32,647 nucleotides of DNA from positions 1-32,647 of the forward strand of contig QHSO01000008.1 in NCBI GenBank assembly GCA_003220475.1, read 5' to 3'. Positions 3,617 to 10,217 of this stretch are shown one piece after another. The DNA is from Candidatus Rokuibacteriota bacterium. GTDB lineage: Bacteria; Methylomirabilota; Methylomirabilia; Rokubacteriales; CSP1-6. Each line of letters begins with the position of its first letter. Positions within the stretch are counted from its first letter, which is position 1. The position numbers and the translations under genes were made by a program. The notes below the pieces were generated by a model that was not told the origin of the DNA, searched no databases, and worked only from the letters and a program-made list of their open reading frames with translations.

Positions 3617-4810
3617 ATGAGCGCCGTCAAAGACCTGATCGGGCCCGCCGTTGACCGCCTTGCCTCCGACCTCGAGACGCTGTCGCGCCAGATCCACGAT
3701 CATCCCGAGCTCGGGTATCAGGAGGTCAAGGCAGCGACGTGGCTCACGGAGTTTCTCGACAAGCACGGATTCAAGCTCGAGCGCGGCGTGGCTGGCGTCG
3801 ACACGGCGTTTCGCGCGACCATCGAGACCGGCGAGGGACCGACGATCGCGATCCTGTGCGAGTACGACGCGCTGCCCGGCATCGGGCACGCGTGCGGTCA
3901 CAACGTCATCGCCGCCGCAGGCGTCGGAGCGGGCGCCGCGCTGGCGGCGGTGCGCGATCGGCTGCCGAAGGGCCGGGTGCAGGTGATCGGCACGCCCGCC
4001 GAAGAGGGCGGAGGCGGCAAGATCCGGCTCATTAAGGGTGGCGTCTTCAATCGCGTCGACGCCGCGATGATGATCCACGGCTTCGATCGCTGGATTCTGC
4101 ATCAGGACCTCCTGGGGATCGTGCGCGCGGGTTTCGAGTTCACCGGTAAAGCCGCGCATGCCTCCGCCGATCCGTGGGAAGGCGTCAACGCCCTCGACGC
4201 CGTGATCCAGACGTTCAACAACGTCAGCATGCTGCGGCAGCAGATCCGGCCCGAATCGCGCATCCACGGCATCGTCACCAGCGGAGGTGCCGCGGCGAAC
4301 ATCATTCCCGAGTTCGCGTCGGCCCTCTTCTACGTGCGCGCGCCGGAGCTCGACGAGATGTGGGCGCTGCAGAAGCGGGTGATCGCCTGCGCCGAAGGGG
4401 CCGCCAAAGCCACCGGCTGCACGCTCAAGGTCGTCCAGCAGCCGGACAACGCCTACGAGCCGATGAAGCGCAACGGCACCCTGGTCGAGCTCTTCCGCGC
4501 CAACGCGCGCGTGCTCGGCGTGGTGGAGTCGCCGGAGAGTCGTGAGCGTATGGGATCGTCGGACATCGGGAACGTGAGCCAGGTGATTCCCGCGATCCAG
4601 CCCATGGTGCAGATCGCGCCCGAGGGCACGCCCATCCACTCGCGCGCGTTCGAGGAGGCGGCCGTCCGGCCGCTCGCGCGCGACGGCATGCTGGCCTCGG
4701 CGAAGATCATGGCCATGACCACGTGCGACCTGCTCGCGAATCCGGCCGTCGTCGCCGACGCGCGCCGCGAATTCGACGCGGCGACGGCGCCACGCCGGGA
4801 GCGCGCGTGA
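3617..4810 (+). CDS. M20 family metallopeptidase/amidohydrolase (M20D-like)
   Basis: CEYDALPGIGHACGHNVIAAAGVGAGAAL, GTPAEEGGGGK, FTGKAAHAS, GGAAANIIPEFASALFYVRA; SD-like GGGAG upstream of ATG. Confidence 0.9.
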   Translation: MSAVKDLIGPAVDRLASDLETLSRQIHDHPELGYQEVKAATWLTEFLDKHGFKLERGVAGVDTAFRATIETGEGPTIAILCEYDALPGIGHACGHNVIAAAGVGAGAALAAVRDRLPKGRVQVIGTPAEEGGGGKIRLIKGGVFNRVDAAMMIHGFDRWILHQDLLGIVRAGFEFTGKAAHASADPWEGVNALDAVIQTFNNVSMLRQQIRPESRIHGIVTSGGAAANIIPEFASALFYVRAPELDEMWALQKRVIACAEGAAKATGCTLKVVQQPDNAYEPMKRNGTLVELFRANARVLGVVESPESRERMGSSDIGNVSQVIPAIQPMVQIAPEGTPIHSRAFEEAAVRPLARDGMLASAKIMAMTTCDLLANPAVVADARREFDAATAPRRERA

Positions 4811-6000
4811 GCGGCGCCGACGCGGTCAAGCCAACGGTCACCGAGGCCGTCGACCGGCTCGCCGACGATCTCGAGCGACTCTCGCATCGCATCCACGACA
4901 CGCCCGAGCTGGCCTTTAAAGAAGAGCAGGCGCACGGCTGGCTCGCGGAGTTCCTCGAAAAGCACGGCGCGCGCGTCGAGCGTGGTGTCGGTGGGCTCGC
5001 CACGGCGTTCCGCGCGACGATCGCCGGCATGGGGGCGGGCCCGACGATCGCGATCATGGCGGAGTACGACGCGCTGCCGGGCATCGGGCACGCGTGCGGC
5101 CACAACGTCATCGCCACCGCCGGCGTGGGCGCCGGCGCGGCGCTCGCGGCGCTCGGTACGCTGCCGTTCGCCGGCCGCATCCAGGTCATCGGCACGCCGG
5201 CCGAAGAAGGCGGCGCGGGCAAGGTGAAGCTCATGGACGCCGGCGTCTTCGACGGCGTGGATGCGGCCATGATGATCCACGGACGCTGCGGTACGCAGGT
5301 CTGGCGTCCGAGCCTCGGCATCATCAAGGTGAAGGTGGAGTTCTTCGGGCAGGCGGCGCACGCTTCGTCGTGGCCGTGGCGCGGCGTCAACGCGCTGAAC
5401 GCCGTCATCGCGCTGTTCAACGCGCTCGACGCCATGCGCCAGCAGATCCGCACCGATGCGCGCATCCACGGCGTCATCACGAAGGGCGGCGAGCAAGCGA
5501 ACATCATCCCCGAGTACACGAGCGCCGAATTCTACCTGCGCGCGATCACGGTCCCCTACTGCCACGAGCTCCTGCGGCGCTTCACTGCCGCCGCGGAGGG
5601 TGCGGCCACCGCCGCCGGCTGTCGCGTGCAGGTCACCGCCGATCCGACGGTCCACGAGCCACTCAAGCCGAATCCGACGATGGCCGAGGCGTTCAGGCGC
5701 AATCTGCAGTACATCGACTTTCCCGAGGATCCGGACGACGGCCAGGCGGGCTACGGCTCCACCGACTGCGGCAATGTGAGCCAGCGGCTGCCGACGATCC
5801 ATCCCTATATCCGGATCTCGCCCGATGGCGTCCCCGGGCACTCGCGCGAGTTCGCGGAGTGGTCGCGCTCGCCCCTCGCGAGAGCCGGGATGCTGGCGGG
5901 CGCCAAGGCGCTGGCGCTCACGGCGTTGGACCTTCTCGCCTCGCCGGAGGCACTGGCGCGCGCCAAGCACGATTTCACCCGCGAAGGAGGCAACGCATGA
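4807..6000 (+). CDS. M20 family metallopeptidase/amidohydrolase, tandem paralogue
   Basis: In-frame part of ORF 4723..6000; GTG at 4807 overlaps the previous stop (GTGA). EYDALPGIGHACGHNVIATAGVGAGAAL, GTPAEEGGAGKVKLM, FFGQAAHASSWPW, GGEQANIIPEYTSAEFYLRA. Confidence 0.9.
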   Translation: MSGADAVKPTVTEAVDRLADDLERLSHRIHDTPELAFKEEQAHGWLAEFLEKHGARVERGVGGLATAFRATIAGMGAGPTIAIMAEYDALPGIGHACGHNVIATAGVGAGAALAALGTLPFAGRIQVIGTPAEEGGAGKVKLMDAGVFDGVDAAMMIHGRCGTQVWRPSLGIIKVKVEFFGQAAHASSWPWRGVNALNAVIALFNALDAMRQQIRTDARIHGVITKGGEQANIIPEYTSAEFYLRAITVPYCHELLRRFTAAAEGAATAAGCRVQVTADPTVHEPLKPNPTMAEAFRRNLQYIDFPEDPDDGQAGYGSTDCGNVSQRLPTIHPYIRISPDGVPGHSREFAEWSRSPLARAGMLAGAKALALTALDLLASPEALARAKHDFTREGGNA

Positions 6001-6528: not shown

Positions 6529-7686
6529 CTAGGCCACGGCGGCCGCCAAGCGGCGCGGCGCGACGCCGATGTACTCGGCGCGCGGCCGGATGAGCCGGTT
6601 GTCGGCGTACTGTTCCATCGCGTGCGCGCACCAGCCCGCGACACGGCCGATCGCGAAGATCGAGGTGCAGAGGTCGGCCGGGATACCGAGCGCGTCGTAG
6701 ACCACCGCCGAGAAGAAGTCGACGTTCACCGGCAAGTCTGTGCGCGCTTTCATGGCATCGTACACGCGCTCGGCCACCTCGAAGAGGCGCGCCCGACCCG
6801 TGGCCTCCGCCATGCTCTTGGCCATCCCGCGTAGCACGCGCGCCCGGGCGTCGTCCACGCGATAGACGCGATGGCCGAAGCCGGGTACGCGCGCCTTGGG
6901 GTTGGCGCGCTCGGCCTTGGACAGCGCACCGCGCGCACCCAGCCGCGCCTCGATGAACGCCTCGGCTTTCGCGGGATCGCCGATCTCCTGCAGCATGCGC
7001 AGCACGTCCTCGTTGGCGCCGCCGTGTCGCGGCCCCTTCAGCGTGGCGATCGCGGCGACCACGGCCGCGTGCAGGTCGGCCAGCGTGGCGACGGCCACGC
7101 GGGCCACGAACGTCGAGGCGTTGAACTCGTGGTCGGCGTGCAGCGTGAGGACGACGTCCATCACGCGCGCGACGTCCTCGCTCGGCGCAACGCCCTCCAG
7201 CAGATGCATCACGTACGCCGCGTGCGAGCCGCTCGACACGGCCGCCGCCGGAGCGCGGCCGCTGCGGATGCGATGCCAGGCGGCAACGACTTCCGGCACG
7301 CGCACCATCAGTCGGAACGACTTGCGCAGATTCGCGAGCGCGCCGCTGTCGGCGACATCCGGATCGAGGGCGGCATCGAGCGAGATGGCGGTGCGCAGCG
7401 CATCGAGTGGATGGCAATCGCGCGGCAGGCTGCGCAGGAGTGCCTCGATGGGCGCCGGCAGGCCGCGTGCAGCCACGAGACGCGCGCGGAAGTCGGCCGC
7501 CTGGGCGGCGTCGGGCCGCTCGCCGGTCCACAGCAACGCCGCCACGTCCTCGAAGGGCACCGCCCCCGCGAGCTCGCCGATCTCGTAGCCGCGATAGAAC
7601 AGGCGGCCCGCCGCGCCGTCGATGGCGCACACGGCCGAGCGCGCGGCGATCACGTCCTCGAGTCCCGCTTTCCATTGGTCGTGCAT
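6529..7686 (-). CDS. Citrate synthase / methylcitrate synthase family protein
   Basis: ADHEFNASTFVARVAVATLADLHAAVVAAIATLKGPRHGGANEDVLRML, PGFGHRVYRVDDARARVL, VNVDFFSAVVYDALGIPADLCTSIFAIGRVAGWCAHAMEQYADNRLIRPRAEYIG; SD AGGAGG before ATG 7686. Confidence 0.92.
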   Translation of the reverse strand: MHDQWKAGLEDVIAARSAVCAIDGAAGRLFYRGYEIGELAGAVPFEDVAALLWTGERPDAAQAADFRARLVAARGLPAPIEALLRSLPRDCHPLDALRTAISLDAALDPDVADSGALANLRKSFRLMVRVPEVVAAWHRIRSGRAPAAAVSSGSHAAYVMHLLEGVAPSEDVARVMDVVLTLHADHEFNASTFVARVAVATLADLHAAVVAAIATLKGPRHGGANEDVLRMLQEIGDPAKAEAFIEARLGARGALSKAERANPKARVPGFGHRVYRVDDARARVLRGMAKSMAEATGRARLFEVAERVYDAMKARTDLPVNVDFFSAVVYDALGIPADLCTSIFAIGRVAGWCAHAMEQYADNRLIRPRAEYIGVAPRRLAAAVA

Positions 7687-7720
7687 GGGCGCCTCCTGTC
7701 ACGTCGCGGCCCGTTGGTCT

Positions 7721-7750
7721 GTAAATTGATTATACATGATTTATATTGAT
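7721..7750. repeat. Three tandem in-phase 10-bp AT-rich repeats (GTAAATTGAT TATACATGAT TTATATTGAT), candidate operator
   Basis: Direct reading of the sequence; consensus roughly nTAnAnTGAT, reads as AATCAnnTnT on the minus strand; lies between divergent citrate synthase and HTH genes. Confidence 0.7.
7729..7734 (-). promoter_or_regulatory. Candidate -10 (TATAAT) for citrate synthase, embedded in the 10-bp repeats
   Basis: Perfect TATAAT on the minus strand, about 43 bp upstream of ATG 7686 with SD between; no well-spaced strong -35. Confidence 0.45.
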
Positions 7751-7758
7751 TCAACTGG

Positions 7759-8052
7759 ATGGCTACGTCAGCCGTCTCGCCGCAGACGGCGGCGACTGGT
7801 AGCGTGGAGGCCGCGGTGGCGACAATCGTGGTGGACGGCGAGGAGTATCTGACCGGCGAGGACGCCGCGCACGCGCTCGGCGTGAAACCCGCGACGCTCT
7901 ACGCCTATGTGAGTCGCGGCATCCTCAAGTCGTACCGCCAGGGCACGAAGCGGCGGCGACTCTACCGCCGCGCGGAGGTCGAGGCGCTACGCCGACTCGA
8001 GCGGGGCCGGCCGCCCCAGATTCCTCCCGCCGACTCATGGATCAGGGATTAG
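7759..8052 (+). CDS. Small HTH (MerR/excisionase-like) protein resembling the N-terminal HTH of HTH-citrate synthase fusion proteins
   Basis: YLTGEDAAHALGVKPATLYAYVSRGILKSYRQGTKRRRLYRRAEVEALRR; divergent from citrate synthase. Confidence 0.82.
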   Translation: MATSAVSPQTAATGSVEAAVATIVVDGEEYLTGEDAAHALGVKPATLYAYVSRGILKSYRQGTKRRRLYRRAEVEALRRLERGRPPQIPPADSWIRD

Positions 8053-8639: not shown

Positions 8640-10217
8640 TTAGCCTCCGTCTCGGCGGCGCTCGGCGGCGCGCTCGGCCTCGAGGCGCTCGAGGGCGACC
8701 TCCGAGTGATCCGCGAACCTCATCGCGGCCGCGAGGGCGCGGTGGCCGGCGCGCTCGGCGATCAGCCGGTGCAGCGTCTGTGCGATCCGCCGGTAGGCGG
8801 GATGGCCCTGCGGGGCGCTGCGGAGCTCGATCAGGTGCATCGCCTCGCGCGCGTTCATCTCCATATAAAAGCGGATGCGGTACGCCATCGCGACCGCGTA
8901 GGGCGCCACGTCCACGAGCCCGGCCGCCGCGATCGCGTCGTGCAGTGACGCCGACGCGTCCAGCGCGCGATGCCAGCGATCCTCGACGTGCGCCTCGGCG
9001 ATCGCCTCCGGCATCGCGGATCCGTGACGCGGAGAAAGCCGCTGCCACTCGAGCGTGAGCAAGCGGTGCCGCTGCAAATCCCGGAACGCGCCGTAATCGG
9101 CGAGCACGTCGAAGCGATACGCCGTACGCTCGAATGCGCGGCCCGGCCGCTGCCGGCGATTCGTCCGCCGCCCGACGTACGCATCGAGCACGGTGCGTCG
9201 CTCGGCCTCGGACATCTTCTGCGCGACCTCGAGCAGGCGGTCGTCCGCCACGTCCGAGACGGCATAGAGCGCGGCCGCAACCACCTTCGCCTCGCCGTCG
9301 GGATCGAAGTCCGTCAGCGTCACCTCGTCGCGCGGCGTCGGCGCCTCGTCGGCGAGGATCTCGGCCGCGACGCCGGCGATCGCCCGGCGCGTCTCGTTCA
9401 GGTAGGACGACCAGGCGACACCGCGATCGGGCAGGTCCACACGCCGGAGGAACGCGGGGATGACCTTACGCAGCTCCACGAGCATGAGGTCGGCGTAGGC
9501 CCGCACCTCCTGCAGCGGATGCGCGCGCATGCGAATGAGCAGATTCTCGTAGGCCTGTCCCGTGCCGTAGATGCCGACGTTCGACGTCGTTGCGGCCGGC
9601 AGCAGCCCCCGCAGCGTGTCGAGCGCCTTGGCGCGGATGCTCGTCCGATATGCGGCCTCCGACGTCTGCGCCTCGCGTGGAAACCGCTCGGTGAAGTGCT
9701 GTCGGAGCACCGGCAGCAGGGCGCGATAGGTGTCGAACATCGCGTCGAGCGTCTCGACGTACCGCGTGTGCAGGTCACCCTCGAGCTCGCGCGGCACGTG
9801 ATATCGATAGCGACCGGCGACGAGATCGTCGTACGGGATGTAGCGGGTCGATTGCTCGAGATACGCGGCGAGACGGCCCCACTCCAGGACTTTGGTCAGG
9901 ATGTTCGACGCGCCCTCACAGGCCAGGTGCACGCCGCCCAGCTGTGCGACCGAATCGTCGCCGTATTCGAAGAACATGCGGCCGTAGAGCTCTTCCGCCC
10001 GCTTCGTGTCGAAGCCCACCGGCGCTCCCGGCGTTCCGCTCGGGAGAAACTCGTCGAGAAACAGGCGGCGCAGCGATTTCGGCGAGCGCGAATAGCGAGC
10101 AAACAGCGCGCCCTTCACGACCTCGGGGAGATTGACGAGCGCGAAGACCGGACCGTCGAGATTGGTGACGTACGGCGAGAGGGCCGCCCGCTCCTCCGGG
10201 CTGAACTGTTCCGTCAT
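8640..10217 (-). CDS. FAD-dependent thymidylate synthase (ThyX)-like protein, double-length with two ThyX-like halves
   Basis: 525 aa; N-half EWGRLAAYLEQSTRYIPYDDL, C-half YGAFRDLQRHRLLTLEWQRLSPRHG, each resembling parts of the RHRxxSxNExSxRY ThyX motif. Confidence 0.8.
   Translation of the reverse strand: MTEQFSPEERAALSPYVTNLDGPVFALVNLPEVVKGALFARYSRSPKSLRRLFLDEFLPSGTPGAPVGFDTKRAEELYGRMFFEYGDDSVAQLGGVHLACEGASNILTKVLEWGRLAAYLEQSTRYIPYDDLVAGRYRYHVPRELEGDLHTRYVETLDAMFDTYRALLPVLRQHFTERFPREAQTSEAAYRTSIRAKALDTLRGLLPAATTSNVGIYGTGQAYENLLIRMRAHPLQEVRAYADLMLVELRKVIPAFLRRVDLPDRGVAWSSYLNETRRAIAGVAAEILADEAPTPRDEVTLTDFDPDGEAKVVAAALYAVSDVADDRLLEVAQKMSEAERRTVLDAYVGRRTNRRQRPGRAFERTAYRFDVLADYGAFRDLQRHRLLTLEWQRLSPRHGSAMPEAIAEAHVEDRWHRALDASASLHDAIAAAGLVDVAPYAVAMAYRIRFYMEMNAREAMHLIELRSAPQGHPAYRRIAQTLHRLIAERAGHRALAAAMRFADHSEVALERLEAERAAERRRDGG

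Follow-up and report, generated by a model that had tools for sequence, protein, structure and literature searches.

A free HTH protein encoded divergently from citrate synthase in Rokuibacteriota: a probable local regulator and unfused form of the N-terminal domain of HTH-citrate synthase proteins

Citrate synthase (CS) is the first enzyme of the Krebs cycle and controls the entry of carbon into it. Many bacteria have a CS copy which carries a DNA-binding head of unexplained function, and a free helix-turn-helix (HTH) protein of the same kind gives a handle on the role of that head. No paper on an HTH-fused CS, or on an HTH regulator paired with CS, was found in the open-access literature. 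In the DNA analyzed here (the window, 32,647 nucleotides, contig C165 of the 4.8 Mb genome of a soil bacterium of Candidatus Rokuibacteriota) a complete CS gene and a small HTH gene stand back to back. What does the free HTH protein do beside this enzyme, and how is it related to the fused ones? The features on which the answer depends are given below; all promoter assignments were made by eye.

6529-7686 (-): CS gene, 385 aa, PF00285 match of 392 bits over residues 8-369
7692-7696 (-): Shine-Dalgarno sequence GGAGG of the CS gene (CCTCC on the plus strand), kept in relatives
7726-7735 (+): predicted operator repeat 1, TTGATTATAC, 10-bp direct repeat
7729-7734 (-): putative -10 box TATAAT of the CS gene, inside repeat 1; GATTATAC kept in most relatives
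7736-7745 (+): predicted operator repeat 2, ATGATTTATA, 10-bp direct repeat
7746-7755 (+): predicted operator repeat 3, TTGATTCAAC, 10-bp direct repeat
7759-8052 (+): HTH reading frame as first noted, 97 codons, containing LTGEDAAHALGVKPATLYAYVSRG
7797-7805 (+): putative promoter of the HTH gene, extended -10-like element TGGTAGCGT, consensus CTGnTAnnnT
7806-7810 (+): putative GGAGG before GTG 7816, usable only if transcription begins upstream
7816-8052 (+): MerR/BldC-like HTH protein from the predicted true start GTG 7816, 78 aa
8020-8049 (+): C-terminal tail IPPADSWIRD, preceded by a variable linker; conserved as [IL]P-x-A-x-x-W-[IVM]

The divergent gene pair

The initial annotation had described a complete stand-alone CS on the minus strand, and the protein bears this out: PF00285 matches it as a full-length domain and the alignment shows the catalytic His (GPRHGG), His (GFGHRVY) and Asp (NVDFFS) all present. 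The enzyme is type II-like, with a TIGR01800 score of 407 bits that is slightly below the cut-off of 421. Two further CS genes are located on other contigs of the host genome, and no HTH match was found adjoining either of them.

The HTH protein had been described as 97 aa long and 72 bp away from CS. The reading frame and its LTGEDAAHALGVKPATLYAYVSRG motif stand, but the gene probably starts at GTG 7816, which gives a protein of 78 aa and a gap of 129 bp instead of the 72 bp counted from ATG 7759. This start is favored because the first 19 residues from the ATG show no conservation in an alignment of 28 intergenic regions, because the same-genus locus L005/L065 is without the upstream ATG and has an in-frame TGA within that 19-codon stretch, and because the -10-like element lies inside it. 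The consensus CTGnTAnnnT is kept in the aligned relatives, usually 6-30 bp ahead of the conserved HTH start; a TGGAC about 17 bp upstream of it is found in many relatives and is missing from the window's genus. With GTG 7816 as the start, the promoter of the HTH gene would therefore be located inside the frame drawn from ATG 7759.

The frame scores 40.4 bits with HTH_17 and 29.5 bits with MerR_1, both above cut-off, and the stand-alone protein consists of a MerR-like winged HTH (wHTH) alone, without dimerization, effector or sensor domain. Its AlphaFold model has a mean pLDDT of 66 (about 70-80 in the wHTH core); the best PDB match of the model, a weak one with an E-value of 0.0078, is BldC on direct repeats (6ama), and Xis (4j2n) is also among the fold matches. 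Nearly all stand-alone HTH proteins end in the tail consensus or a variant of it, while the linker before it varies in length and sequence. Such a conserved tail behind a variable linker suggests a docking peptide. The tail was also compared with the first strand of CS, of which it might be a relic; the likeness was obtained at the second-best position, in Rokuibacteriota only, and was not significant, and this origin was rejected.

A survey of synteny finds the divergent pairing, on which the first reading of the locus had turned, kept across Rokuibacteriota and Chloroflexota. Strong HTH matches were found in 29 of the 148 relatives searched, all but one from the same family, and in 27 of these the HTH gene is divergent from an adjoining CS ortholog (63-100% identity); of the two exceptions, G041 breaks off at a contig end and L019 of G033 has a CS remnant. 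Among 70 relatives, all 18 genomes with a CS ortholog of at least 69% identity also have the HTH, and G033 alone has the HTH without the CS. Wherever a single Rokuibacteriota contig holds both genes, they are divergent. This recurrence and co-occurrence rule out chance neighbours. The genes around the pair (M20 peptidases, SodC, ThyX) are retained in few relatives only, and therefore the conserved unit is the HTH/CS pair itself. When named genomes were scanned with the HTH profile, a stand-alone HTH divergent from CS was also found in the Chloroflexota Ktedonobacter, Dictyobacter, Ktedonospora and Oscillochloris and in one metagenome-assembled genome (MAG) labelled Proteobacteria.

The remnant locus L019 (G033) retains the HTH and its -10 element but no repeats, and of CS only 28 C-terminal residues are left; it reads as a loss of CS and operator together. 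Among the neighbours in the window, the frame at 8640-10217 (-) encodes a ThyX-like protein of 525 aa with two Thy1 stretches, apparently a tandem duplication and present in a few relatives, and two tandem, mutually homologous M20 peptidase genes at 3617-6000 (+) have reading frames that overlap where they meet.

Relation to the fused HTH-citrate synthase proteins

A profile-profile comparison (99.7%, E 1.2e-26, 57 columns) shows that the window HTH and the HTH at the N-terminus of the fused HTH-CS proteins are homologous. When the profile of the fused HTHs was searched against the host genome, the window HTH was the sole clear match, the next match having 18.9 bits; the protein groups with the CS N-termini (86.5 bits with this profile) and not with the excisionases (25.0 bits with the model TIGR01764). 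The proposal of the initial annotation, that the HTH is the unfused form of the fused architecture, is thus upheld by the homology, by the conserved divergent pair and by a TTGAT core which both kinds of loci share.

Fused HTH-CS genes were found in Nonomuraea, Nocardia, Pusillimonas, Bordetella and a Polyangia MAG in the scan of named genomes; the phyla with fused genes here are Actinomycetota, Pseudomonadota, Chloroflexota and Myxococcota. The HTH profile used in that scan favors TLYAYV, and the scan was therefore repeated with an HTH-only profile of the fused proteins on genomes drawn evenly, which gave matches in 40/299 Pseudomonadota and 32/297 Actinomycetota genomes. Nearly all of these matches are within frames of 380-540 aa, and the loci have CS in frame. 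At least 42 of the 78 fused loci have a second, stand-alone CS (the partner CS), always divergent and never in the same direction; this count is a lower bound because some flanks are short. PRK12350, the model of the partner CS, was passed by exactly one of 14 control genomes. The catalytic His/His/Asp are retained in 72-74 of the 78 fused CS domains, so that these domains are not dead enzymes in general. Both arrangements are present in one cultivated organism, Ktedonobacter racemifer (G163), which has the stand-alone HTH/CS pair at C9:2328515-2328784 and a fused HTH-CS at C6:388569-389762.

In a CS tree of 99 rows the fused CS domains are on one side of a branch with 100% support and the window CS is on the other, apart from L171 and the L178 pair, most likely mislabelled rows. 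The side opposite to the fused domains holds the partner CSs, the Chloroflexota CSs, the host paralogs and the window CS, and the Rokuibacteriota CSs do not nest inside the partner/Chloroflexota clade. Its place in this tree makes the window CS the equivalent of the second (partner) CS found with the fused genes. The idea that it is the enzyme half of a gene that was once fused is not supported, as it falls outside the fused CS clade. It follows from the tree that either the fused domain arose once, from a CS copy and a stand-alone HTH, or lineages like this one have lost it. A Glu replaces the catalytic Asp (NVEF/NVEY vs NVDF) in all readable rows of the partner and Chloroflexota CSs; the window CS and nearly all fused domains keep the Asp.

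A predicted operator and the enzymes beside it

Three 10-bp repeats occupy the intergenic region of the window, and the site at 7726-7751 is the only one of its kind in the host genome when up to 3 mismatches are allowed. Upstream of the HTH gene in 25 Rokuibacteriota loci, TTGA-TTGA spacings of 10, 20 and 30 bp were counted 28, 22 and 7 times and every other spacing once each. Of the 25 loci, 24 have a repeat in 10-bp phase where 0.2 would be expected, the one without it being at a contig end; of 561 other tiles none has it. A consensus search of 70 relatives returned 13 sites in 12 genomes, every one at an HTH locus, with 0 in the controls.

Phased repeats are also found at 10/15 Chloroflexota CS loci. 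In many MAGs of Chloroflexota the place of CS opposite the HTH gene is taken by a gene for an HMGL-like condensing enzyme (about 440 aa, TFRDGQQAR), and the repeats are present at 14/16 loci of this kind. Where the HTH adjoins neither enzyme, repeats were found at 0 of 6 Chloroflexota loci, against 14/20 with one of the enzymes. At the Ktedonobacteria loci L096, L098, L099 and L107 the stretch searched contained no match to the strict repeat pattern.

The loci at which a stand-alone HTH faces the HMGL-like enzyme are L095, L100-L106, L109-L113, L118, L120 and L091, mostly with phased repeats. None of the HMGL-like enzymes tested matches an NCBIfam equivalog; NifV homocitrate synthase and isopropylmalate synthase are nearest, far below cut-off, and the enzyme may be a Re-citrate synthase. 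Its substitution for CS in genomes that lack a Si-CS was considered and rejected, as those genomes do hold a Si-CS. A set of Ktedonobacterales-like loci (L090, L092-L094, L097, L241, L242, L246, L252) encode close HTH relatives which mostly end in AWIPYV, with neither a CS nor an HMGL gene adjoining and without repeats where tested; these HTHs are possibly a re-targeted branch.

The predicted operator core TTGAT is common to the stand-alone and the fused HTH loci, with direct repeats at the former and inverted ones at the latter. A TTGAT inverted repeat is present at 47/53 fused loci (0.65 expected) and in 1/848 other tiles; the motif was derived from L123-L144 and tested on separate phylum samples, with L163 and L193 in both sets. 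The pattern TCAAYRTTGATTnnnnTCAA occurs a single time in each of 18/22 genomes (3-14 Mb) with a fused gene, and by its coordinates the site is in every case at that gene; the backwards control gave 0; the site of the Nonomuraea fused gene is TCAATATTGATTnnnnTCAA. This operator core of the stand-alone and fused loci is new here. As the predicted operator is single per genome tested, the role of the HTH can be addressed with a short DNA probe, and the two kinds of loci provide a natural comparison in which one recognition helix would work in a small protein on direct repeats and in a part of an enzyme on inverted repeats.

Proposed regulation and comparison with known systems

The reading that we favor, and hold with good confidence, is that the divergent CS has a dedicated local regulator in the 78-aa HTH protein, which is the unfused form of the N-terminal domain of HTH-CS proteins. 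Regulation of CS is inferred from the conserved predicted operator over the putative CS -10 box. The TATAAT at 7734-7729 (-) is 43 bp from the CS start codon, and this TATAAT and a TATATT are both inside repeats. Copies of the HTH protein would bind head-to-tail, in a BldC-like manner, on the direct repeats at 7726-7755; the oligomer on repeat 1 would keep RNA polymerase off the CS -10, and repression of CS would scale with the HTH level. The protein is probably a repressor at this promoter, because the bound oligomer would cover the -10 in repeat 1. With no sensor domain in the HTH, its conserved tryptophan tail is a candidate docking site for a carrier of a metabolic signal, possibly CS itself.

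Autoregulation by the HTH in the window is uncertain, because the predicted HTH -10 is about 50 bp downstream of the repeats. At L116, L119 and L121 of Chloroflexota the last repeat doubles as the -35 hexamer, 17 bp before the TATACT/TATAGT of the HTH gene, and autoregulation is therefore likely there. At fused loci the operator is directly upstream and abuts the start codon. CS enzymes are dimers, and a dimeric CS domain in the fused protein would thus fit an inverted-repeat operator; with the HTH on the CS domain and the operator where the fused gene begins, the enzyme would regulate its own gene.

The same operator would also serve an activator, if the HTH bent or untwisted the CS promoter as MerR proteins do. 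The MerR-like fold is in keeping with this, as is a promoter with a good -10 and a poor -35 that could be made usable in this way: the CS gene has TATAAT without a recognizable -35, and a scan of the window for the sigma-70 consensus found no promoter. However, repeat 1 is over the -10 itself, and a repeat serving as the HTH -35 (L116, L119, L121) and a fused operator abutting the start are likewise at positions usual for repression, which makes activation somewhat unlikely. Another reading gives the HTH its main role as a protein partner of CS, with the tail docking on the enzyme and controlling either DNA binding or enzyme activity. Conservation of the tail across lineages behind its variable linker speaks for it, and fusion elsewhere often marks physical partners; yet the same tail is found beside the unrelated HMGL-like enzyme, so its target may not be CS, and its likeness to the first CS strand is not significant. 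We regard this as unlikely.

It is quite improbable that the repeats are merely conserved promoter sequence and that the HTH binds elsewhere. AT-rich repeats with TATAAT and TATATT within them could serve the promoter itself, but their phasing is exactly 10 bp, the TTGAT core recurs as inverted repeats upstream of fused genes in other phyla, and the repeats are absent from the 6 Chloroflexota loci where the HTH adjoins neither enzyme. Least credible is an excisionase of a mobile element, or a stray HTH_17 gene that came to lie beside CS by chance; the TIGR01764 score and Xis 4j2n among the fold matches would suit it. That score is below the cut-off of 28.8, the pairing is kept in at least two phyla, the HTH has 86.5 bits to the fused CS HTHs, and no integrase was found among the scanned window neighbours. 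A mobile-element origin was rejected on the sub-cut-off score, the homology to the fused HTHs and the neighbours without integrase.

A wider proposal, which we put forward tentatively as a possibility, is that fused HTH-CS proteins across several phyla are enzyme-transcription factors and that the free HTH is the same regulator without the enzyme half, BldC-like and, in some Chloroflexota, re-used for the HMGL-like enzyme. The fused protein would bind one operator, at its own promoter and at that of the second, divergent CS. If this is true, the enzyme that opens the Krebs cycle would sense the substrates on which it acts and govern its own supply, and the HTH switches from symmetric dimer to head-to-tail binding once it is free of the enzyme.

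A lead from the literature is provided by Caulobacter crescentus, in which two extra CS genes, citB and citC, have consecutive locus tags (CCNA_03757/03758; PMC7083601) and CitB alone complemented an E. coli gltA mutant. This is possibly how a CS and HTH-CS pair would look, and is a lead only; the passages on these genes mention no HTH. The fused HTH-CS proteins have the same TLYAYVSRG HTH and TTGAT core as the window HTH and often the same divergent stand-alone CS, but the window HTH is a free 78-aa protein on direct and not inverted repeats, and the CS domain of the fusions is a separate clade which the window CS does not join. BldC of Streptomyces binds head-to-tail on 9-bp direct repeats (PMC5859096). 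Both BldC and the window HTH are small MerR-like wHTH proteins without coiled coil or sensor domain, and both have loci with direct repeats about one helical turn apart. They differ in the repeats (10-bp TTGATTnnnn in the window vs 9-bp AATTnnnnC for BldC), in the extra tryptophan tail of the window HTH and in its failure to pass the BldC model NF033787 of NCBIfam (18.4 bits vs a cut-off of 77); and whereas BldC controls a regulon, the window HTH is apparently a local, single-site regulator beside an enzyme gene.
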